Part shown: one piece after another, positions 5,901-62,972 of the stretch | Numbering within the stretch: position 1 is the stretch's first letter | Layout of the letters: the number at the start of each line of letters is the position of its first letter | Assembly (NCBI GenBank): GCA_031763025.1 | Contig: JASSKH010000024.1 | Span: 6,167,387 to 6,231,386 of the forward strand | Source: Macrocystis pyrifera | Lineage: Eukaryota; Sar; Phaeophyceae; Laminariales; Laminariaceae | DNA: 64,000 nt | Reading direction: 5' to 3' | The notes under the pieces: model-generated | The model's input: only the letters and a program-made list of their open reading frames with translations | The model's database searches: none | What the model was told of the DNA's origin: nothing | Translations under genes and position numbers: made by a program

Positions 5901-8664
5901 AACACTTAAGAGATATACGGGGGATTGAGGGAAGGAATAGGAATGAAAACGTATTTGCATGGCCCCATGAACTTCGCCAAAACGCTGAAACTGCGGTTTC
6001 GTGTAGGTGATGTGGACCTGCCAGAAAGAAGGAAGAGGTATACCGGTAGCCGGGAGGAGGAGGAAGTAGATGCACAGATGTGCCCGTGTGGCAAAGCAAT
6101 TGAGAGTAGAACTCACATAGTAGGAGAATGTGAAATATACAAGGAGGAACGGGATGTGTTGGAAGAGGAGATGAGGGAAATAGACGAATGTGACATGGAG
6201 GAGTTTTATACACTGAATGGCAGCGAGAAAACGATCGCTATCCTAGGAGATGGTGGCCACAGGCGGCCAAACATGAAGTGGATAATATTAGCAAAAAGTT
6301 TCTATGTAATATATATATATTTTTTTTTTTACTCATCACTTTCACTTTCCAGCCTAATTCGTAAGAGGTGTTACCCTCGACGACCTTCTGGACAAGCCGT
6401 GGTCACAGGTGTCTTCCCTTCTCCCCCCCCCGGTACGTGCCTTTATTTTTTATCGCGCATAGGGTTCAGCATTCCCACTGCTCGTCGATTTTCATCGAAT
6501 GTAGCTAACTCACGCTCTCGCGCTTTCCGCTAATCAATCTCTTTAATGCAAGAAACAGCCCCTACGAGCATGCACTCGGTGAGACTCGAACCCACGAAAT
6601 TGATCTTGACAGGCACGCGGACCACCTACCAAGCCACCGGGGACTATATATGGAAGCAACGTATCGAGCGCCCAATTGTTGGAGGTGTCTCTATTAGGAG
6701 TAGGAACGGTGCTCCGTCTCGAAAGGGATGCGTGGTCAATGGTCAAATGACTAAGGCAAGCAACAAATGAGTACGCCCCCCCCCCCCCCACCTCGAACGT
6801 GGTGTGCCTCAACCATTTGGCGGCACTAACGGCCGTGTGTGGTTGGTGGGATGGTGATGTGACTGTCATACCGATTGGACCTTGTGCGAGACTCATGAAG
6901 TTGTATCAGGGTCTGATGTTTTATCTATACCCCCCCACCCCTCCCTGCCTCCCTCCCTCCCTCCCTCCCTCCCTCCCTCCCTCCTCCCTCCCTCCCCCTC
7001 TCCCGCTCCCCCCCCCCCACCTCCCCCCCAATCCCCCCTCCTTCGTCTGATGTCGGGGTCGTACAGATCGTGGTGGATCACGGGACAGTTTCCCCCCTCG
7101 GTTTTCCAAGAAAATGGCGGAGGCGGTAGCAAAGGGGGGAGGATCGTTTCTCGACGCGCCAATCAGCGGGGGTCCCCAGGGGGCACAGGAAGGTTTGCAC
7201 TTGAAAAAAAAAAAAAAAAATTGTTGTCCTCCTTTTTTTCGCTCAAGGATTTGGAGACCCAGGGGCAACCACCGATGCGATGAGAAGCGGCTTGTTATTA
7301 GCCGCCAATCACGGGGGAACGTACCGTAGTGATCATAGTCTTTGCGGCGTATCGAGATACGGGGATACCTGGTTTTTCGGTGTAAATGTGGGTTTTGATT
7401 TCTACGTATGGCCTGTGTACGTACCGTGATATTGTGAAAGCTCAGCGCAGCAAAATAACCGGTGGTTTTCGTTGCTGCGCTTGTGTGTGTGTCGTACGCG
7501 CGCACAGCTTGCTGCATTTTGGTTGGGACACTCGGGGCGAAAACTCAGCGGTCTCGCGGGCTGCTTGCTCCGCGTGGGTGGTGCTGTAATCGTCTTTGAG
7601 TTTTCCTCATATATATATATATTTTTTTTTTTTTCCCCCTTTCTGGAACGCGAAAGGGTCGTATCGACAGCTCATCTCCCCCCGCTTAATGATGTACTGT
7701 AGATATTTCAGGGCAGATGATCTGTATGATGTGTATGATCTGTAGGATGAGTATGATGTGTATGATCTGTATGATCGGTATGATCTGTATGATGTGTATG
7801 ATCAGTATGATCTGTATGATCTGTATGATCTAACGCATGTTTCCTGGGTTGGATGTGTGCTTGTCTAGATCCTGCACAGCATATCATAACGGCAGCTTAG
7901 GATCTACAGCGGATGATCTATGTGTCCGAGGTATGACTTCTTTGACCACTACAAAAATTAACTACCACACAAATTCCAAGTAGTTTCCCGAAAACTGTGG
8001 TTGCGGGTCTAACGCCGCAGGAGTTCCACAGCCCGGCTGTGTCTTGTGTCGATTCAACTCGGTGGTATTAGACAGCAGTCATTCGTGACGGCAACACGAG
8101 TACGTACGTAGGCTGTCACAACTTTTTTCTCTACAAATACAGCACGACCGTGGCGGTTGGGCCTGAAAGAGCTGGATCAATCAGCCTTTTTAGGCCACAT
8201 CTCTTCTTATATACCGGATACTTTTTACAATCCCGAAAAAAGATTGGGGTCGAGCTTGTTGCATTTGTACAGTACAGCTCACGTTTTTGAGTCGGAGCAC
8301 GACCGAACCAAGCTTGGTCTTGTCAAAATACCTGCGGCCTTTCGGTGAGAGGCACCTGGGGCCCGTTCTTGTCATCTCTGGAGGCGTACGAGCAGTCCGG
8401 CTTTTTTTTGCACGGTGTCGTCACTGTCGGAGCGATTTTTTTTTTTTAAGGAATTGGTTTTCAAGAGATGACGAAAAACACGCTGATTCACCTTTACACA
8501 TACTGGATCGGCCACGAACTACTGTAGAGCTATGATATACGTACGTACGTCCCGCCCATCCACCTCCAAGCTGCTCCTGTCTCGATTTGACTCGTGGTAC
8601 GCGCGCGCACTCACATGCGCACCCCATTGAGAAGAGCAAAGCACAAAGAAAGCGTCGCTCCCCG

Positions 8665-8726
<62 letters not shown>

Positions 8727-10290
8727 CCCTTCCGTCCAACGACGAAATGGATAATGCACCACTGCTGTGTTGATTGACCACGGCTTTGCTTCCGAAGGCC
8801 GCAGATTTATTATCTCTTCAGGATTGCAGTCCCGTTTCATCGACACAGCGTAGACTTAGCAAGTGTCATTGCATTTACGCTTATCTAAACGGCGGCACTA
8901 ACAGGATTACAATATAACTATTACGGGGGTCCATAGTTAATAGGACCAAATATTATTAGTAAAAATAGGGAAATATATAGTTTTTTGTGTGTACCGTAGG
9001 TCCTATTTACTATGGCCCCCCGTACTATAGACTTCCTTCGAGTTGAGCGCGGAAAGCAAAACTGGCGGCGATGACAAAAAAACATGTACCAACACGTAAT
9101 ATATATGTGCTTATGCGGCAGGGAGCCTGTCCATTATGGTGGGAGGCAAGGAGGAACACGTGGAGACCTGCATGCCCGTTTTTGAGGCCATGGGGAGCCG
9201 GATCGAACACATGGGTCCCTGGGGATCGGGGGCGGCTGCTAAGCTCGTGAATCAGGTTAGATTTAAGCGCTTTTTTTTGGCGGGTGTGTGTGTGAGTTTT
9301 TGTTGTTGTTGTTGTTGTTGTTGTTGTTGAAGGACAGGGGAGGCGATAGGGATTGTTGGTGGCAGTGCTGTTCGTTGGTGGTTATGGTGCCGGTGGTGGC
9401 GGTGGTGGTGGTGGTGGTGTTTTTTTTTTTTTTTGCTTTTTTTGTTTTCCTTTGCGCAGCATGCAGACACTTTTACAGTTACCCCTATATTGTACAAGCC
9501 AGTAAGCTGTCTGCCCGCGCTCAAGCTGCCATTGTTTCCCCCCTTAACTTATCCTCTCGCCTGGTGCCTTCTGTATACCCTCTTTCGCTTTCTATCCGCT
9601 CCCTTCGCTGATGGTGGTGGTGGTGGTGGTGTGTGTGTGTGTCTTTTTTTTTTTTGCAGCACTTAGTCATCACGAATACGGTGGCGGCGTGCGAAGCATA
9701 CGTTCTCGGGAGGAGTCTGGGGCTCCGCGACACGAACAAGCTCAAGGGCTTGCTGGCGGAGTCATGGGGACACAGGTATCAAGAGAGTCTTGTTCGTGTT
9801 CGTGTTTGTTTTTGTATTGTTTTGTGTCTTTTTCATCTGGAGCGTGAAAAGCGCAAAGCGGCGTACCCAGTTTGCTTCGGTGAGGGGGAGGGGGAGGGGG
9901 GGGGGGGGTGTACTCATGTCTTGCATGGCCGTAATCGGGGAGGGGAGCTTATGCTTATTTGTAGTTCCGTGTCCTTGTTGAGGGAAGTCGTTTGTGGTGT
10001 AATTCGCGGTACCGACGAAAAACCGGCTGCCTCGAAGGTGGCTTGCGAGTGCTTCCGTTCCCTTGTATGCTTGGTGTCATCGTCATCATTGCCATTGCCC
10101 TCATCATCAGCATGATCGTTATGTCAGATACCAAGCATCATAATCATTTCTTGAACTATCAGTCAGCGATGATTATTTTGGTCAGTGGCTATGGTGCATA
10201 CCAGATATCAAACTAAATCTCTCTATCCGGGGTCGACTGGCTGCTTATCTGACACATTATCATCATCATCATCATCATCACCATCATCAC

Positions 10291-11592: not shown

Positions 11593-14500
11593 CACCAGGT
11601 GTGCGAGAGTACCACAACTTGTCGAATGGAGACCAGCAGCATGGAGGTGGAGGCGGTACAGAGCCGTAGTGCAAGCGTGGCCCATCGCAACGGGCGAAAC
11701 ATGTCTGCGGCTCAGACAACTGGTGCGGTTCCAGGCTCGATCGCGTCTTTCTTTGCCCGTCGTGCACAAACCACATCGCTGCTATCACACCCGTTAATAT
11801 CACCCCCCGGTCTGCCTAGGATATGTATGGCAGCAGGATTCGTTTGAAACCACTGCTATCACCCCCCCGTGCTATCACACCCCTGCGGTATACCACCCGG
11901 GGGTGGTGAACAATCTAAAATCCCACACGACCACCCACTTTATCACCGGGAGTACGGTGTATACCTCACCCCCACAGTATACCACCCCGGGTGATAAAAT
12001 TCCCAAATTCAAAATAATATCACCGGGGGTGTGATATACACTGCTGTCATATACCAGGTATACGGTACTGCAGAACACCACCCCGGGTGATAAAATTCCC
12101 AAACTCAAGATATTATCACCGGGGGTGTGGTATACACTGCTGTCATATATACGGTACTGCAGAACAGGTTTTCCCTGAGTTGGGTCTGTACTATTGCGAT
12201 CCTGCACAGCCTCTCACGCCGGTAGGTGAGGGACTCCGGTATTACGGGGGGCCATAGTAAACAGGACCAAATATTGTTGGTAAAAATAGGGAAATTACAG
12301 GTTTTTGTGTGTACCGCAGGTCCTATTTACTATGGTCCCGTCTGTCCTGGGTGCGCGAGGTTTTGAAGTCTCGCGCCGTGGTCAGCTTTTTTTTTGTTTC
12401 TGTTTGTTCGTTCGTTTGTGTCCCCCGGCGGGTTGGTAAGCCATAAAAGGTCTACCCTTTCTATTACGGGGGACCATAGTTAATAGGACCAAATATTGGT
12501 GGTAAAAATAGGTAAATATATAGGTTTTCGTGTGTACCGTAGGTCCTATTTACTATGGTCCCCCCGTAATTGGGCAAACAGCAGACCCGCGCCGTTTCGG
12601 GGACGAAGCGCTTGAGAATTTGACTGGTTTGTCCCCAAAAACTAGACTGCAGTCCTAGGCGGGCTAAGCTCGCCACGCTTCCTACATTTATCACAGCTGT
12701 CGCCGGCCGGTTCTCCTCCTGTGCAAGCAACCCCTTGCATAGCTGCAGCCTGCCTTTCCTTTCGGGAATCAATGCTACTGATAATTACACCAGCATGCTT
12801 CTTTCCAGTGGGAAAAAAAGGGTTAATCAACCCCCGCCCCCCCCCCCCCCCCCCCATCCCCTGCCTCGCCTCCACACGTTTCACCACAATCCTTCAAGCC
12901 GAATGCCGGACCATGTGATACTCCGTACTCCGCATCGTAAAATAGCTTGTTGACCGGCCTCCTCCCCCGCCCCGCCTTCGCCTCTGCCTCCGAGGTTCCT
13001 GAAACCCCTTTCGGTCGCAAAGCCAGACCACGCGCTATTATTTTCGTTAGTATGGCGGAACGACCCCCTCCTGATCTCTCCGGGCGTTTTATGTACTACC
13101 TGGTACACACAGTACTTCGTATAAAGGATATAACCCTGTCAAGCTGAATTCTGGGCAATGAATGTAACGGTTTTCGCTGCCGAAAAATGGTTGATCGACC
13201 CCCCCGTCCTCGCACAGCCCCCGCGCGCGCTCGTTGTATGACAACCCGCTGGAGCCGGCTTTTGGGCCGGTCCATAGTTTGCCTGCAGCGAAAAGTGCCA
13301 ACCGACCCCCCCCCCCTCCTCCCCACCAACCTCGCTCGTTTTATGACAACAACCCTATCAAGCCCTTTTTTTTAGTTTCGAAACTACGGATACGTTTGCA
13401 GTATTGCCAGTCAAAAAAGTGAAATCTCCCCTCCTCGCCCCGCCCCCCCCCGCGCCCCGCGCCCCGCCTCCGCCTGCGACTCCGCGCGTTTCGTCAAAAC
13501 CTCCTTTGAAAGCCGAATGCTCGACTTCGTTCTGGCAGATCTCCTGAAGGTGGAGCAGGCGGGCGATGACGTCGAGGCTCTCCGGAGATCGCTTGCGCCG
13601 GTACTCACGCTGGCCAAGGACGCGGCCACCGTGACGCGAGCGGCGCACGAGGGAGGGGCGTCGACGATGCTCCTGCAGTTTGCGAAGGCACAGGTACGGT
13701 ACGGTACGGTACGGTATGGTGCGGTGCGGTACGGTGCGGTACGGTACGGTATGGTACGGTACGATACGGTACGGTGCGGTGCGGTGCGGTGCGGTGCGGT
13801 GCGGTGCGGTGCGGTGCGGTGCGGTACGGTACTGTACGGTGCGGTAAATTTCGTTACGGCACCATAAGGTACGGTACTGTACGGTTCCGTACAGCACTGT
13901 GCTAGACGGTACGGTACGGTTTGGTACTGTACGGTACGGTATCATACGATACGGTAAATATGTACCGTAGTCATAGTACGTTACTTTACGGGACTGCACG
14001 GTCGGTCCGGTTCGGTGCCGTACGGGTACGTGTTGAGCTGTGTGTGGGGTTTGAACATGCAAGTGGTATTGATATGGTAACCGACGCTGCGATCCAATCA
14101 TGTCGGTGAACGCGGTCGACGCGACGCGGACAAGAAGGAAGGAGGGCTGCGGGGACAAGGAGCGGGGGGGGGGGGGGGGGGGGGGGGTGTACTCATTTTT
14201 ATGCAGAGTTGAGGTTTTCCCCGCACAAAGATGATCTAACTCGACCGCCAGCCGTTGGTAACCGCTCCAAAAAAAACCGAACCAAAACAAAATGGTACCC
14301 TGGTTGTCAAGCTCACGCAGTGAGAAGCGTGTTCAACAGGATCGTCACCAACCGACGCCAACCCAACCTATATATATATATATATATATGCATATATATG
14401 AACCAGGTATGCCAGGTATATAATATAGGGGGGAGGGGCTGGTGGTAGTGGTGGTGTCTGGTGTTAGCATTGGTGTTGGTGTTGGTATTGTTGCGTCGTG

Positions 14501-16659: not shown

Positions 16660-16764
16660 TTACGGGGGTCCATAGTTAATAGGACCTATGGTACACATAA
16701 AAACCTATATATTTACCTATTTTTACTAGCAATATTTGGTCCTATTTACTATGGTCCCTCGTAA
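16660..16764 (+). mobile_element. MITE family A copy, II/I ends
   Basis: Left TTACGGGGGTCCATAGTTAA, right TACTATGGTCCCTCGTAA, with TA on both sides. Confidence 0.9.
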
Positions 16765-22400: not shown

Positions 22401-22924
22401 CTCATGGCGCGGTGGGTGTTATCTTTTGTTGTTGTTGGTGGTGGTGGTGGTTGTTGTTGTTGTTGTTGTTGTTGTCGTGGTTGTTGGTGTTGCTGCTGTT
22501 GTTGTTTCGTTTGGTTTCCTCTTCTTTTCTTCTCTCGGGATGGTGTACACCTAAATATAAGCACTTTTTGTTGTTGAATATTGATATACAAACGGTCCCT
22601 ACATTAACGGGCAGAGTGGTACCACAGGCAGAAATACACGTTCATTCACGCTGCACAAAACATTTAAAATTTGCTGAGTGGGGCGGTCTGTGCGTGTAAT
22701 ATGGCGAGCGGTCTACAGCAGCAGTAGCATACGTTGCGGGGGCGATCGACTAACAGGGCGTCAGTGATTTGTTGTAGTAAACAGTTGACTTTTACGTCGA
22801 CTACTGGTTAATACCTGACACTAATTGTACCAAAAGAGCATACCAGGTATATATATAGCGAATACTCGCGACCCTGATTAGGTGTAGTAGGTAATGCGAA
22901 AGAAAGCTGAAAGAAATTATGCTG

Positions 22925-23008
22925 TACTGTAGTATTCTATCTCTCTACCGTGGATCATTTAATTTAAGTATTGGATTGGATGAGGCCTCCTGCGCCGGGC
23001 AGGAGGTC
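22925..23008 (-). repeat. Split direct repeat B2
   Basis: TACTGTAGTATTCTATCTCT through GGCCTCCTGCGCCGG matches B1 (23288-23371) in the same orientation with about five differences. On the minus strand it is the outer 3' end of the recombinase element. Confidence 0.8.
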
Positions 23009-23165
23009 TCGTCTGGTATTTCCCCCGCGCTGAGTAAAGTGGCGAATCACATACTCTGCGCCGGGTTAATGCCTGTAAATGATCTGGGTATACGAGCCCA
23101 AGATGCCAGTTCTACTGCCGGGTGGGTGGGATGGTCTCAAGAAATGGCGCGACCAACTCTACTCC

Positions 23166-23290
23166 CGAGGTTTTGGGAGCGAAAGGAAGAAGTGACCTCG
23201 CTTCGATACAAATTCCGAGACATTTCGATATCATCCATGGTTCCAATATTTATGCCAAATTTGAGTCCATAAATTAGATCGTCATTTTAC
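23166..23290 (-). repeat. Split direct repeat A2
   Basis: 125 bp, CGAGGTTTTGGGAGCGAAAG to AGATCGTCATTTTAC. It abuts B1 directly, sharing TAC. Four mismatches to A1. Confidence 0.88.
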
Positions 23291-23371
23291 TGTAGTATTC
23301 TGTCTCCCTACCGTGGATCATTTAATGCAAGTATTGGATTGGATGAGGCCTCCTGCGCCGGCCTGTGGTCC
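23288..23371 (-). repeat. Split direct repeat B1
   Basis: TACTGTAGTATTCTGTCTCC to GGCCTCCTGCGCCGG. Joined to A2 as expected for the internal B1A2 junction. Confidence 0.8.
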
Positions 23372-23447
23372 CGCCCATACTTCGTTATTTCAGATTTGCC
23401 TTTATAGTTGACCGCTGGTCCGGGGCAGAGTTGTCTCACCCAAACTT

Positions 23448-24750
23448 CTATAACCTGAACTCAGCCCTTTCCCGCACACGCCGCAAAGTCTTTTCTGAAC
23501 TGTGGCGACAATGGTAGGTCGCTAGCTTCCGCGTAGCTCTGGCCCCGTTTCTTCTTGCTACCCGCACTTGTCCACTCGAGGTAGCCCCGATGTAGTACTT
23601 CGCAACTGACTCTGTCTTCCAGCACCCAATTTTCATGATCTCGTCCACAGCCGTCCCGGCCAGGGATTTGCTGAGCGAGCCTCCCACTCGAAAGGAGTGC
23701 ATCGTGAAGTGGGTCGGCAGGTCTGCCATCCGCAGATAGCTTTGCGGGTTCGCCGTCATGCGGGCCGCGGAGAGAGCGAGACGGCCCCGGCCACCTTCTG
23801 CCGTAGCAACGGGGAAGAGGTGCCCGGTGGTTAAGTCCCACCCAATCCGCTGTGCGGCCGAGATATACGCGTAACCGCCCGAAAGGCGCAAATCACCGGG
23901 CAGTCCCGGTCCGCTAAGACTACCGCTGCCTCACTAGAGGCCCGAAGCGTCTTGCCAAACTGAAAGTTGAAAATCAAACCCATAGACGCTGAGGGCTTCA
24001 AAACGTGCGACCCCATGGTAAAGGAAAGATCACAACCCCTACGCATCGAATAGAAGGCCAAAGAATAGAAGGCGATATCTCGGGTCAGAGAAATACGCTC
24101 TGCCAGACAGCTGGCCACCTGAGCGCGCGACCGCATGTCGCTTAGCAGATCTATGAGTGTGTGTTCCAACATCGGCGCGGCGTGATTGACCTGAACCCCA
24201 ACCAGTTTCTGTTCCTCAGATACGAAGGTAAGATACGAACCAACGGGCTCGAGCACGGATTTCCTACCCGGCGGACAGGGTCCCATTCCTCTCCCTTACC
24301 GCTTTCTTTCATCGCCATTTTCAGCTTCGAGACAAAACTATTCGAATAGACTCGGCCGCGTACCGTTTTTTAGCACACGAAGACCCCGTCAGGCACGTAT
24401 CGTCGCCCGCATGGCCCACACCGAGGCAGGACGCTTCATGCACCATCTTGGTGCCTTTCCCTTGCGTGTCCAGGAAGCAGAGGAAATTAAAGACATCGTC
24501 CGGGGTAGCTGTTTGCCAACCACGGAACCCGGCCGATACAACGAGCACAAACGCGTCAAACTCGTCGGCCACCCTGCTTTTCCGGACTTGCCCCGGGGCG
24601 CCCTTCCATCGCAGCCAGTACTTGGCGTCGACGTGCTTGCAACGACAGGCACCCGCCCCAGATAGCCGGATACCGCGGGGCCGGCAATGATCGAAGCGGC
24701 TGAGCGCCGCACTTTCAGCAGAAATTAAACTGTGAAACGTTTTCTTCCTG
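23448..24750 (-). pseudogene. Tyrosine recombinase, frameshifted
   Basis: DNA strand-exchange recombinase of a YR transposon. In order on the minus strand: an N-terminal SAM-like part (ATPDDVFNFLCFLDTQGKGT, then CAKKRYAAESIR, about 24560-24370), a central part (FVSEEQKLVGVQV, IAFYSLAFYSMRRGCDLS, IFNFQFGKTLR, about 24286-23880), and the catalytic C-terminus (GHLFPVAT, LSAARMTAN, MHSFRVGGSLSKSLAGT, GCWKTESVAKYYIG). First catalytic Arg is near 24039, the HxxR near 23689-23699, and the nucleophile Tyr near 23592-23597. All key residues survive, but the pieces lie in different frames and so need at least two shifts. The best family match from memory is the Crypton/DIRS-like YRs of algae, oomycetes and invertebrates. 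Confidence 0.75.
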
Positions 24751-24936
24751 ACACGTAGAGCGAAACGCAAACCGAACCAAGTCCCTGGCCGTGGCCGCCC
24801 CGCTGATAAGTGCCCCACCCTGAATGTGGCTCCCGCTACGTAGCGCCGTTCTGTTTGAAGGAGAACGCCAAAGAAAGGGAGACCGTAAGCTTCGGTGAGC
24901 GTTCGAAAACGTCCGAAACCGCGAAATATATGCACT

Positions 24937-25688
24937 CTACCATGTGATAGCTGCCCGTCCCCGCGCGATAGTTGCCGAAACTTGGGCAATCGTTACCCTG
25001 TGGTACCGAAGTCTAACTCGTATGCTATCATACCCCAGTGAGAGCACCGCCAATTCTTGAGACCACCATCTGCGCTGGGCCACTGAAAGCACCCTTCCGC
25101 CGCCACTGCGGCCACCTCGATCCACCGCACTGCTGTGGCTAGCTAGCTGCACCAAAGGGAACCAATAGGCCTTAACATCCGGCAAAGGGACAACCGCGCG
25201 GGCCTCGCATTCCGCCAAGTGTTGCACGATGTGGCCGGTCATGATCGGAGGTGGGAAACAAAACCCGAAGGCCGGGACCTTGGTACCCGGAACGAGCGAG
25301 ACGGCGTGCGCGAACACGTCGGTCCCCGCCGAACCCGCACAGTCGTACTGAGATAAAAAGGGCAGTGCCTGCCCAGAACCGCCCCGGCTCCCAAGGCCCC
25401 TTGCTTGAAGAAGGTCAGCTGCTCTAGCGGTGTGGAAGGGTCTACCCAGGTCGCCGACGCCCGATTCGGGTTGGGACGCGGACCCTCCTCGGGCAACGCC
25501 GGGACCGGGGCTGACGCGATAGCAGCAGCGGCTGCTGGGAGGGCCGGTGTTGAGCACGTGATTCGCGGCATCCTCCAATACTCCCAAGACTTTAGCGACC
25601 GATTCGTAAAGCTTACGAGGTTTCGGGAGCGAAAGGAAGAAGTGACCTCGCTTCGATACAAGTTCCGAGACATTTCGATATCATCCAT
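24937..25688 (-). pseudogene. DIRS-like upstream protein segment, frameshifted
   Basis: Starts inside A1 with MDDIEMSRNLYRSEVTSSF. An Ala/Pro-rich linker with PEEGPRPNPNRASATWVDP follows. After a frame change near 25385 it reads TDVFAHAVSLVPGTKVPAFG, FCFPPPIMTGHIVQHL and VVPLPDVKAYWFPLVQLASH. The D-FA ... PPP ... WFPL pattern resembles the segment between RNase H and recombinase in DIRS-order elements. It lies directly upstream of the recombinase. Family assignment is from memory and tentative. Confidence 0.5.
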
Positions 25689-25740
25689 GGTTCCATTATT
25701 TGTGCCAAATTTGAGTCCATAAATTAGATCGTCATTTTAC
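25616..25740 (-). repeat. Split direct repeat A1
   Basis: 125 bp matching A2. It forms the 5' end of the minus-strand element and encodes the first residues of its protein. Confidence 0.88.
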
Positions 25741-26490
25741 CAAGTAAAAACGAAGTGGTATATGCACATATTTATGTATGTATAAAAGTCACCAGTCCCC
25801 GACCTGAGTTCAGTACATAACACTACAACCTAACCACACTCTCCGTCCGGAAAGTTACGGACCGTTCGGATATCCATGCTGACACCGAAACGGCCCTTAC
25901 ATGTTAAAAAAAAACATAAAATAGCATCACCCGCCTTCGATGTGGCATGTATACCAAACAATACAATAATAATAATAGATGCAGGAAGGAGTAAAAGACG
26001 ACACATAGAGTATCGTAGATAAAGCATAAAAGGAAATAGACATAGAAGATAGATAGACCTTGCGCATAATAGATTTCCTTTGGATCCGGGTATTTCTTCG
26101 TTCAGGAACGTTTTGAGTGATCAACGGTGAAGCTCATGCTGCACATTGTCGGATGGCAAGCCTAGTAATAATAATAGCCGAACGCTTTTCCCGCCGGGTT
26201 CGCCCGCAAAACTATATTGCTGTAGTGCTCGTGGTCGTCACCCCCGCCACAGAGAAACGCCGAAATAACACGCAACTCCCCCCGGGGGAATCAATGAATC
26301 AACCCCAGAGCCAACATAAGACTATACCGACAACATAAAAAGAGCCGTGCTGCGGCTTCGGTAGGGGTTTCACTTGATTATAGTTTGGGCGTGTGCTGCG
26401 GCAGGGCAGGGGGAGCGCCCAAAATCTGATCTTGAGAAAAAAACCAAAGAAAAAAGTGCGAAACCCGACAAACAAGTGTAGAGCTACTAT
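25741..26490. other. Region without a supported gene
   Basis: AT-richer sequence. A 42-bp stretch at 26115-26158 (TGATCAACGGTGAAGCTCAT) recurs at 34212-34266, and a diverged inverted form lies at 19745-19805. Confidence 0.45.
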
Positions 26491-27228: not shown

Positions 27229-27732
27229 GTTAGTTTAATTTTCGGCGTAGCCACTTACAGAGACAGTAATGGGAGTACTGTGTAACTGTCTCTTGGGTGC
27301 CTTACCATAAACACTACGTGATACGATCATTCCCCTTGTGCGGACTAAAGGTGCACCCAAACTTACTGTCTGTCCGTCCGATCTATTATGTATAATCATT
27401 CGCCAGGCCTGTGATTCAGCCCCCTCACATACTTTCCATGCCCCCGGCTCCACCTTTCCCCCCGTCCCCATCCCCCCCCCCCCCCCCCCCCCCTCCGCCT
27501 CCTCTAAATCTGGATGGGCTAGCGTCGAGTGGCGACGCCGTTGGAAAACAAGTCACCAGACACTAGACATGCAATGTACAGACTGCTCCTTCCGGCACAA
27601 ATGCCACATAGACCAGACCAAACATAGACACCGTGCAGACAACAGCTCAAAACCCAGACCCACCGGTAAAGCAAACACAACACAACATACACGATTCACA
27701 GTGATTTTCCCATACCAAAACACACACCGAAT

Positions 27733-28300
27733 TTAGGCATGAAATTACTCAACCAACATTTTTTTTTCCTTTACCGGAACGCAAAACCCAGATTTAGACG
27801 TGAAACAATTGAACTAACCAGTTTTTTTTTATGCCCATATGATTACACAAACAGGATTAGACATGAAATTACTCAACTAACTACTTTTTTTCTCGTGCTA
27901 AAAACGCCAAAACCAGATTTAGACGTGAAACAATTGAACTAACCAGTTTTTTTCCCCTTTATCATAGCACAGACCGGATGTAGACATGAAATTAGTCAAC
28001 TAACGTTTTTTTTTAATCATACCAAAAACGCAAAAAAACAGAGTTAGACGTGAAACAATTGAACTAACCAGTTTTTTTCTTGCCCGTATCATAACCGGAT
28101 TCAGACATGAAATTACTCAACTAATCATTTTTTTTTTTTTTTTCCGATACCGAATCGCGAATCAGAAATATATTTGAAACTACTCGCCTAACCGTTTATT
28201 TTTTTTTTTTTTCCCATACCAAAACACAAACCAGATCTAGACATGAAACAACTCAACTAACCGTTTTTTCCCCCCCATATTCCCATATCCGAACCCAAAC
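27733..28300 (+). repeat. Dimeric tandem repeat, about 64-bp monomers
   Basis: Monomers alternate between two types. Type 1 has GACATGAAATTACTCAACTA, type 2 has GACGTGAAACAATTGAACTA. Each is followed by ACCAGTTTTTTTT or similar and a CCAAAACCAGATTTA spacer. The first five or six units keep strict alternation, giving a higher-order period of about 130 bp. The last units diverge. Confidence 0.85.
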
Positions 28301-30601: not shown

Positions 30602-32440
30602 ATGGCCAAAGATGCAGAGCAATTTTCCGAGCTATTGGAAATAATAGGTACAACAAGGAATGGTATAGAGAGGGATGGTGCAGGAGCTAGGATAATAGAA
30701 GGATGGGAGCAGTTGGTCAATACCACAGCAAGTAAAGCAATAGGGAAGAAGTTGATAGTATGTAACAGAGCAGTAAAATGGTGGGATGAGGAAGTGAAAG
30801 AGGCTATAAGAGTAAGGAGAAAGGCACACGAAAGGTATACATCGAGTAAAACTTCGACAGGGTGGGAGGGATATGCTATAGCTAGAAAGAAAGTAAAAGA
30901 GATGGTAGAGAAGAAGAAGAAACGGATATGGAAAGACGCAGTAAATAAAACAAATGAAGACTTTGAGGGAGGGATGAAGCAGATGTGGGTAGGGATAAAA
31001 GGGATACTTGGCAGACAAGCAGGAGAGGCAGACAGTGGAATAGCTACCTTAAGAGCACAGAACGGTAAAATGCTTACTAATAGTAGTTCGAAGGGGAAAA
31101 GGGAAGCACTATAGTAGTAGAGCATTACCATAAGCTAGGAACACCCACAGCCAACGAAACGTTCGACGCAGAATTCGAGAAGGAAATCAACGCGTGGGCA
31201 GAGGCGAACGTAGATACATCAGAAAGGGAAGACAGTGGTTCGGGAGGGTTACAGAGAGAGTTCACAAGGGAAGAGGTAAAGAAGTGTGTAGCTAAACTTA
31301 AGAATAGAAAGGCAGCAGGGGCAGACCAAATAGTGAATTTTAATTTATGAAGTACGGGGGAGAAGGGATGCTTACCATGATGGTTATGCTGTATAGCTGG
31401 GTATGGAAAAACGCGTACGCACCTAAGAGGTGGAGAGAGGAAGTAGTAGTAAACTTTTTCAAGAAAGGAGATAAGGCTGACCCGGGGAATTATAGAGGGA
31501 TAACGCTACTAAGCACAGTAGGCAAAACATTTTCAAAGATTTTGAACGATAGAAGGGGAACGATTATGGAGAAGGAAGCAGGGTTTAGGCCAAGCCGTAG
31601 CTGCGTGGACCATGTGTACACCTTGGGTAAGATAATCCAAGGTAGGAAAGACGCGGGACTAACAACGTACTGTTTCTTTCTAGATGTACAGAAAGCCTAC
31701 GACACAATATGGAGAAATGGATTGTGGAAAAAACTGTGGGAAATAGGAATCAGAGGAAATATGTGGAGAATGATGAAAAAAATGACGGAATGTGCGAGAA
31801 GTGCTGTGATGCTGGACGGGGAAATATCGAAGTATGTTGATTTTACAAGGTGTTGCACAGGGATGTACGTTGTCACCTAACTTATTCAAGATATATATTA
31901 ACGACCTGATAGTAGCAGTCGAAACAGCAAGGCAGGGAGTCACGGTAAGGGAAGATACGGTGTCGGGATTGATGTTTGCAGATGACTTCGTGGGGGTACC
32001 AGAAACACCCGAAGGATTGCAGAAACAAATAGAGAAGGCGCTAGAATACACCAGGAAATGGAGGGTGACGGCGAACGTCAAGAAATGCGCAGTAGTTGTT
32101 TGTAACGAAGATGAGGTGAACCCGGTAACTTTCAGTTGGAAGTGGGGAGAAGATGAATTGCCAATCGTAGACCAGTATACGTACCTTGGCGTAGATATAT
32201 CAAAATACTGCTCTTGGTATACACATATAGCCAAAGTATTAATAGTAGGAAAGGGTAAAGCACAAGTAGGCAAGATGGATGAGATCCTAACAGACTCGCA
32301 TCTTGACACTAGGATTAAGAGATGTATCCTGATGAATGTGATAGTACCAAAGCTAGAATATGCAGGAGAAGTATGGGAAGGGAACGCGAAACTCGTAAAG
32401 CAGCTGGAAACAGTACAGATGACAGCAGCTTAAAAAATCC
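30602..32440 (+). pseudogene. LINE reverse transcriptase, broken
   Basis: Includes the linker (30602-31114), then FTREEVKKCVAKLKNRKAAG (31261 on), WREEVVVNFFKKGDKADPGN, YRGITLLSTVGKTFSKIL, EKEAGFRPSRSCVDHV, FFLDVQKAYDTIWRNGLWKK (motif A), LQGVAQGCTLSPNLFKIYIN (about 31841) and the catalytic FADD (about 31976). Thumb residues follow to 32433. A stop near 31350 and a frame change near 31840 break it. Confidence 0.85.
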
Positions 32441-62756: not shown

Positions 62757-62972
62757 TTACGGGGGGACCATAGTAAATAGGACCAAATATTGTTATTACG
62801 GGGGTCCATAGTTAACGGGACCAAATTTTGATGGTAAAAATAGGTAAATATATAGGTTTTTATGTATACCATAGGTCCTATTAACTATGGACCCCCGTAA
62901 TAGTAAAAATAGGTAAATATATAGTTTTTAGTGTGTACCGTAGGTCCCCTATTTAGTATGCCCCCCCCGTAA
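62757..62972 (-). mobile_element. MITE family A copy, outer member of nested pair
   Basis: Left TTACGGGGGGACCATAGTAA to CCAAATATTGTTA. Resumes after 62900 with TAGTAAAAATAGGTAAATAT and ends ATGCCCCCCCCGTAA. Split by a second family A element. Confidence 0.9.
62796..62900 (-). mobile_element. MITE family A copy, inner, II/II ends
   Basis: Left TTACGGGGGTCCATAGTTAA, right TTAACTATGGACCCCCGTAA. Inserted at the internal TA of the outer copy (TGTTA|TAGTAAA), duplicating TA. Confidence 0.92.

Follow-up and report, generated by a model that had tools for sequence, protein, structure and literature searches.

Introduction

The described mobile elements that come closest to the locus reported here are the DIRS1-type retroposons of Ectocarpus and marine animals, in which the recombinase carries an ALOG domain preceded by an FCS-type zinc ribbon and tends toward fusion with an inactive N6-adenine methylase, and in which reverse transcriptase (RT) and RNase H lie upstream of the ALOG open reading frame (ORF) (PMC3537659). 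The intact Ectocarpus element is slightly longer than 9 kb, encodes Gag and RT-RNase H and has 159-bp terminal direct repeats, which its description there does not present as split (PMC3537659). Split direct repeats have been described for PAT, Ngaro and VIPER (PMC4157794; PMC8547959; PMC6681497), PAT combining them with a methylase and Ngaro having them without one (PMC4157794; PMC3266345). Among the PAT-type elements, Kangaroo has an inverted tyrosine recombinase (YR) and internal repeats between MT and YR (PMC4157794). Reduced forms have also been reported: internal-deletion variants are known for Ngaro, ORF1 being deleted in the Cafeteria Ngaro type 2b (PMC8547959), and SIRE of Trypanosoma cruzi is the A2-B2 region of VIPER occurring as a separate element (PMC6681497). 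In Ectocarpus, a survey of 2025 gives 15 Ngaro and 5 PAT-like families (PMC12477816).

In this report, we draw on repeat comparisons, profile searches and structural-database alignments to describe a 2.8-kb element with split direct repeats (22925-25740) in a 64-kb stretch of DNA from Macrocystis pyrifera, which we call the window, and we weigh the ways in which it may have arisen. It is probably a dead element derived, with loss of RT, from a PAT-type DIRS retrotransposon of the ALOG class. Throughout the text, repeats are named in the sense of the recombinase, which is encoded on the minus strand, and coordinates are those of the window.

Split direct repeats and their junctions

Read on the minus strand, the order of parts is A1, interior, B1A2, 167 bp and B2. 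The two A copies, one at the 5' end of the element (A1, 25616-25740) and one internal (A2, 23166-23290), are direct repeats identical at 121 of 125 positions (96.8%; BLAST E 3e-55), which bears out the 97% given in an earlier reading made from the sequence only. The two B copies, one internal (B1, 23288-23361) and one at the 3' end (B2, 22925-22998), are likewise direct repeats and agree at 70 of 74 positions (94.6%; BLAST E 1.5e-27). Taken over both repeats, 8 of 199 positions differ. Both pairs were recovered by two methods, and a chance origin is ruled out by the two E values. B1 and A2 are joined with an overlap of 3 bp (TAC, 23288-23290). B2 lies outside A2 behind a spacer of 167 bp (22999-23165), and the two are not adjacent. 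The sequence-only reading had called the A1-internal-B1A2-B2 arrangement exact and assigned it to the plan of DIRS-order elements (Ngaro/PAT): the order holds, as do the split direct repeats that define the plan, but the exactness needs a qualification: the A copies differ at 4 of 125 positions, the B copies at 4 of 74, and a spacer parts A2 from B2.

The spacer shares a single inverted match of 18 bp with the interior (E 0.028) and is otherwise unrelated to it, and the rest of the window holds nothing better than that match. When 22800-25900 was compared with the rest of the window by BLAST, no further match better than E 0.048 appeared, and the window contains neither a separate A-x-B unit nor a second copy of the element.

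The trinucleotide TAC is common to the B1A2 joint and to both outer ends (22925-22927 and 25738-25740), the plus-strand junctions reading GCTG-TAC-TGTAG at the left end, CATTT-TAC-TGTAG at the joint and CATTT-TAC-CAAG at the right end. A target-site duplication was looked for at the outer ends, and the two flanks have TAC in common and nothing longer. We presume that TAC represents the crossover bases; its presence at three junctions is consistent with crossover by a tyrosine recombinase between a circular joint and a short target match, although three bases prove little. The border between B2 and the spacer is spanned by a hairpin (22979-23013) with a 15-bp stem that includes two G.T pairs. 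In a scan of the window for stems of at least 15 bp (loop 3-8, G.T allowed) it was the sole one outside a simple repeat, and its second arm is absent from the internal copy B1. The hairpin may have arisen as a fold-back scar or may act as an RNA signal.

A decayed coding unit in the interior

The interior, of about 2.1 kb, is filled by a coding unit on the minus strand (23448-25571) that runs from the first ATG after A1 (25571), 44 bp beyond the inner edge of A1, to a stop codon at 23450-23448, which ends 86 bp before B1. Reading through from this ATG meets at least five frame breaks or stops (4-5 over the three start frames); the plus strand needs 16-17, and 200 mononucleotide shuffles needed 8-19, with a mean of 13.9. 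The interior was once a single coding unit, unless the TAA at 24995 is old, in which case there were two. The true start of the unit is not certain because the frame of the ATG stays open through A1, and G+C by codon position along the interior is not clear enough to fix the frames. The copy is dead.

The first recognizable part of the unit (25138-25350) contains AFGFCFPPPIM and VVPLPDVKAYWFPLV, which by eye, and against motifs of DIRS methylases, we take to resemble the inactive methylase segment of DIRS elements. Active N6-adenine methylases carry the motif (D/N)PP(Y/F), in the place of which this segment has FPPP. No methylase profile matched the interior in six-frame and across-break Pfam scans or in NCBIfam, and we treat the putative methylase-like segment as a lead.

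Downstream of it lies a stretch (core of the match 24393-24512) that resembles the ALOG zinc-ribbon DNA-binding domain. ALOG_dom is its best Pfam family. The E values are 0.054 and 0.014 in single frames; bridging the frame break with X gives 0.0018 for a 121-aa reading and 0.017 for a 441-aa reading, and every one of these scores is under the curated Pfam cut-off of 26.6 bits. The stretch continues in another frame to about 24274. The next Pfam match for the stretch is Phage_int_SAM_1, an integrase N-terminal domain (E 0.28). None of nine reversed or shuffled controls matched ALOG, and two of the nine matched other families at E 0.028 and 0.035, so the single-frame scores are near noise and only the value of 0.0018 is clear. 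In the six-frame Pfam scan of the interior (stops read as X) ALOG was absent, and against the PDB the ALOG-like piece retrieved only unrelated proteins at E 0.36 or worse. AlphaFold models of this stretch (pLDDT 30.9) and of a second piece (pLDDT 37.7) were too poor to use.

The remainder of the unit appears to encode the catalytic region of a tyrosine recombinase, distributed over two overlapping parts (23831-24295 and 23448-23930). When the 3' part was compared with the PDB, 17 of the 18 sequences listed to E 10 were Cre or its derivative Tre (best E 0.17), and when the protein was read across breaks with X the count was 17 of 19 (best E 0.009), these matches falling short of the tool's default E of 0.001. 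The aligned stretches are colinear with the N-terminal, first-Arg and HxxR-W-Y regions of Cre, the alignment being very weak over the first part, and they place the catalytic motifs R, HxxR, W and Y in order: RRGCDLSF at 24043-24020 carries the presumed first catalytic Arg, and the HSFR, W and YY stretches of the second part fall on H-x-x-R, W and Y of Cre. We take these aligned residues of Cre to be its catalytic R, H-x-x-R, W and Y. In PHROGs, the HxxR-Y stretch aligned to Cre also matched phrog_29857 (E 0.0023), a family of unknown function. Single-frame, across-break and six-frame Pfam scans gave no integrase family up to E 10 for the catalytic pieces, and the NCBIfam search of the element pieces returned one meaningless match only. 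These weak matches suggest that the interior encodes Cre-like tyrosine-recombinase motifs.

The sequence-only reading had seen no RT in the interior, and our search agrees: translated in six frames, with stops read as X, the interior matched no profile of RT or RNase H. The scanned part lies to the right of the outermost 0.36 kb (B2, spacer and A2), in which the 167-bp spacer cannot hold an RT. As a positive control, the same library recovered a broken LINE RT at 31344-32433 in two pieces (RVT_1, E 1.2e-12 and 1e-11), which shows that a broken RT is detectable, not that every decayed RT is, since the LINE and the element may differ in age. This LINE is on the plus strand, its RVT_1 match being spread over two overlapping ORFs, and a related C-terminal piece can be seen by eye at 5910-6533.

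Comparison with described elements

The locus shares with the ALOG-bearing DIRS1-type retroposons the order, on one strand, of a segment that by eye is methylase-like, a weakly ALOG-like stretch and tyrosine-recombinase motifs, and the possession of direct repeats, and decayed copies are usual among them (PMC3537659); it differs from the elements described there in its length of 2.8 kb, in having no RT that we could find and in its 125- and 74-bp split repeats. With the PAT-type elements (Pat1, Toc and Kangaroo; PMC4157794) it has in common the split direct repeats and, by eye, the methylase-like segment, whereas no RT or RNase H was found here and A2 and B2 stand 167 bp apart. The plan A1-[ORFs]-B1A2B2, as given in PMC8547959, has no such spacer. 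A unit of the form A2-x-B2 with a unique inner stretch is described for VIPER/SIRE (PMC6681497), but that stretch is about 30 bp long there against 167 bp here, and VIPER encodes RT (PMC6681497) and is described without a methylase (PMC3266345). Ngaro has the same order of repeats and known internal-deletion variants, but the deletion of type 2b covers ORF1 and not RT (PMC8547959); because Ngaro is described without a methylase segment (PMC8547959; PMC4157794; PMC3266345), it is the less likely affiliation, and the Ngaro label is disfavored by the part that we read by eye as methylase-like. Cryptons likewise have a recombinase without RT, but the terminal direct repeats described for them measure 4-6 bp or are lacking, against the long split repeats found here (PMC3212892).

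A phrase search of the literature for non-autonomous DIRS, Ngaro or YR elements gave no match, one paper matching only "solo AB repeats". Exact-peptide scans of bacterial and viral collections confirmed no relatives in IMG/VR contigs (four protein pieces) or in GTDB contigs, phages and plasmids (one piece each), which says little, because a eukaryotic element is not to be expected in such collections.

Origin of the element

Derivation from an RT-bearing parent is favored because methylase-like and ALOG-like parts seem to precede the recombinase, as they do in the RT-bearing DIRS1-type retroposons, both identifications being weak. The sequence-only reading had offered an RT-deleted derivative able to use the recombinase; its first half is the reading we prefer, and its second half fails for this copy, in which the coding unit has at least 4-5 breaks. 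The other option of that reading, a compact YR transposon class with this end structure, is less probable. As no RT or RNase H was found, we file the element as a derivative and not as an intact PAT-type member of DIRS. The parent would have carried Gag and RT-RNase H between A1 and the methylase-ALOG-recombinase unit. An RNA running from A1 to B2 would have been copied into cDNA, which the B1A2 joint would have helped to circularize, giving a B-TAC-A joint; the recombinase would then have crossed this joint with a host TAC, leaving A1 and B2 at the ends with no target duplication. The RT block would have been lost before or after insertion and, if before, the short form would have been moved by RT supplied in trans from full-length copies. 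Several observations weigh against derivation by RT loss from such a parent: no full-length copy was seen in the window; the terminal repeats of the Ectocarpus element are not described as split (PMC3537659); the coding unit starts 44 bp from A1, which requires a deletion that ended close to the start of the unit; the spacer between A2 and B2 is no part of the A1-[ORFs]-B1A2B2 plan; and the identifications themselves consist of Cre and ALOG scores below thresholds, no Pfam integrase match for the catalytic pieces and a methylase named from motifs by eye.

One variant of this derivation, which does not exclude it, has a complete element losing its RT in place after insertion, so that the short form never moved. 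The 8 differences in 199 repeat positions and the 4-5 or more breaks in the coding unit mean that there was time enough for decay in place, but in a single copy a loss before insertion would look the same, and we consider this variant possible, somewhat short of an even chance.

A second alternative starts from the fact that the plan A1-x-B1A2-y-B2 reads identically from both strands. Read on the plus strand, 22925-22998 would become A1, 23166-23361 would become B1A2 and 25616-25740 would become B2, with an inverted recombinase unit between the last two and with Gag-RT deleted at the spacer, in a layout like that of Kangaroo, whose YR is inverted and whose internal repeats lie between MT and YR (PMC4157794). 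Such a layout would account for the otherwise unexplained 167-bp spacer and would do away with the need for a deletion that stops where the recombinase unit begins, a unit that fits tightly against A1 as we name it. The wobble pairs of the hairpin at 22979-23013, which are G-U only in plus-strand RNA, point the same way, weakly, being two positions. Against it, the methylase-like segment lies on the strand of the recombinase and not with the RT as in Kangaroo, and the RT is reported upstream of the ALOG ORF in the ALOG retroposons (PMC3537659). We regard this layout as unlikely.

Less likely still is a recombinase-only DNA transposon that has A and B as its ends and travels in the form of an excised circle, the mode proposed for Cryptons. 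The locus would then be a tandem of A-YR-B (23288-25740) and a 366-bp non-autonomous A-x-B (22925-23290) joined by recombination at TAC. In favor of this, either half has a single A and a single B as its bounds, with TAC in common, the coding unit occupies the room between its flanking repeats, and SIRE, which is the A2-B2 region of VIPER, shows that an A-x-B unit can exist alone (PMC6681497). Against it, the terminal direct repeats described for Cryptons are short or absent (PMC3212892), the methylase-like and ALOG-like parts, if right, link the protein to RT-bearing retroposons, and the window has no separate A-x-B unit or second copy. It is similarly improbable that A-recombinase-B and A-spacer-B units move as DNA circles via TAC and stack in tandem without reverse transcription; were it so, the split-repeat plan of PAT would be a relic of stacking.

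Taken as one dead copy, the element extends the known diversity modestly. If it is an RT-less derivative that spread, the methylase-ALOG-recombinase modules of DIRS can travel apart from RT, and such travel would bear on how ALOG domains were freed as plant transcription factors. If many copies lack RT, reverse transcription would not be needed for split direct repeats.

Other repeats in the window

Scans of the 64-kb window for tRNAs and Rfam families were empty. The window is rich in a short palindromic repeat with inner arms CATAGTTAATAGGACC, many copies of which are flanked by TATTACGGG and CCCGTAATA. The arms match 46 times in 64 kb, against 0.02 matches expected, and 34 of the 46 are arranged face to face, making 17 pairs with starts 66-68 bp apart (for example, at 8932-9014, 12475-12557, 16671-16753 and 62807-62889). 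An exact search of IMG/VR contigs with one arm sequence was negative. This dense repeat looks like a MITE family. Two arrays were also observed: about 53 copies of the pentamer GGTAC at 13693-13956, and a tandem array of about 3.4 copies of a 125-bp unit at 27724-28138.
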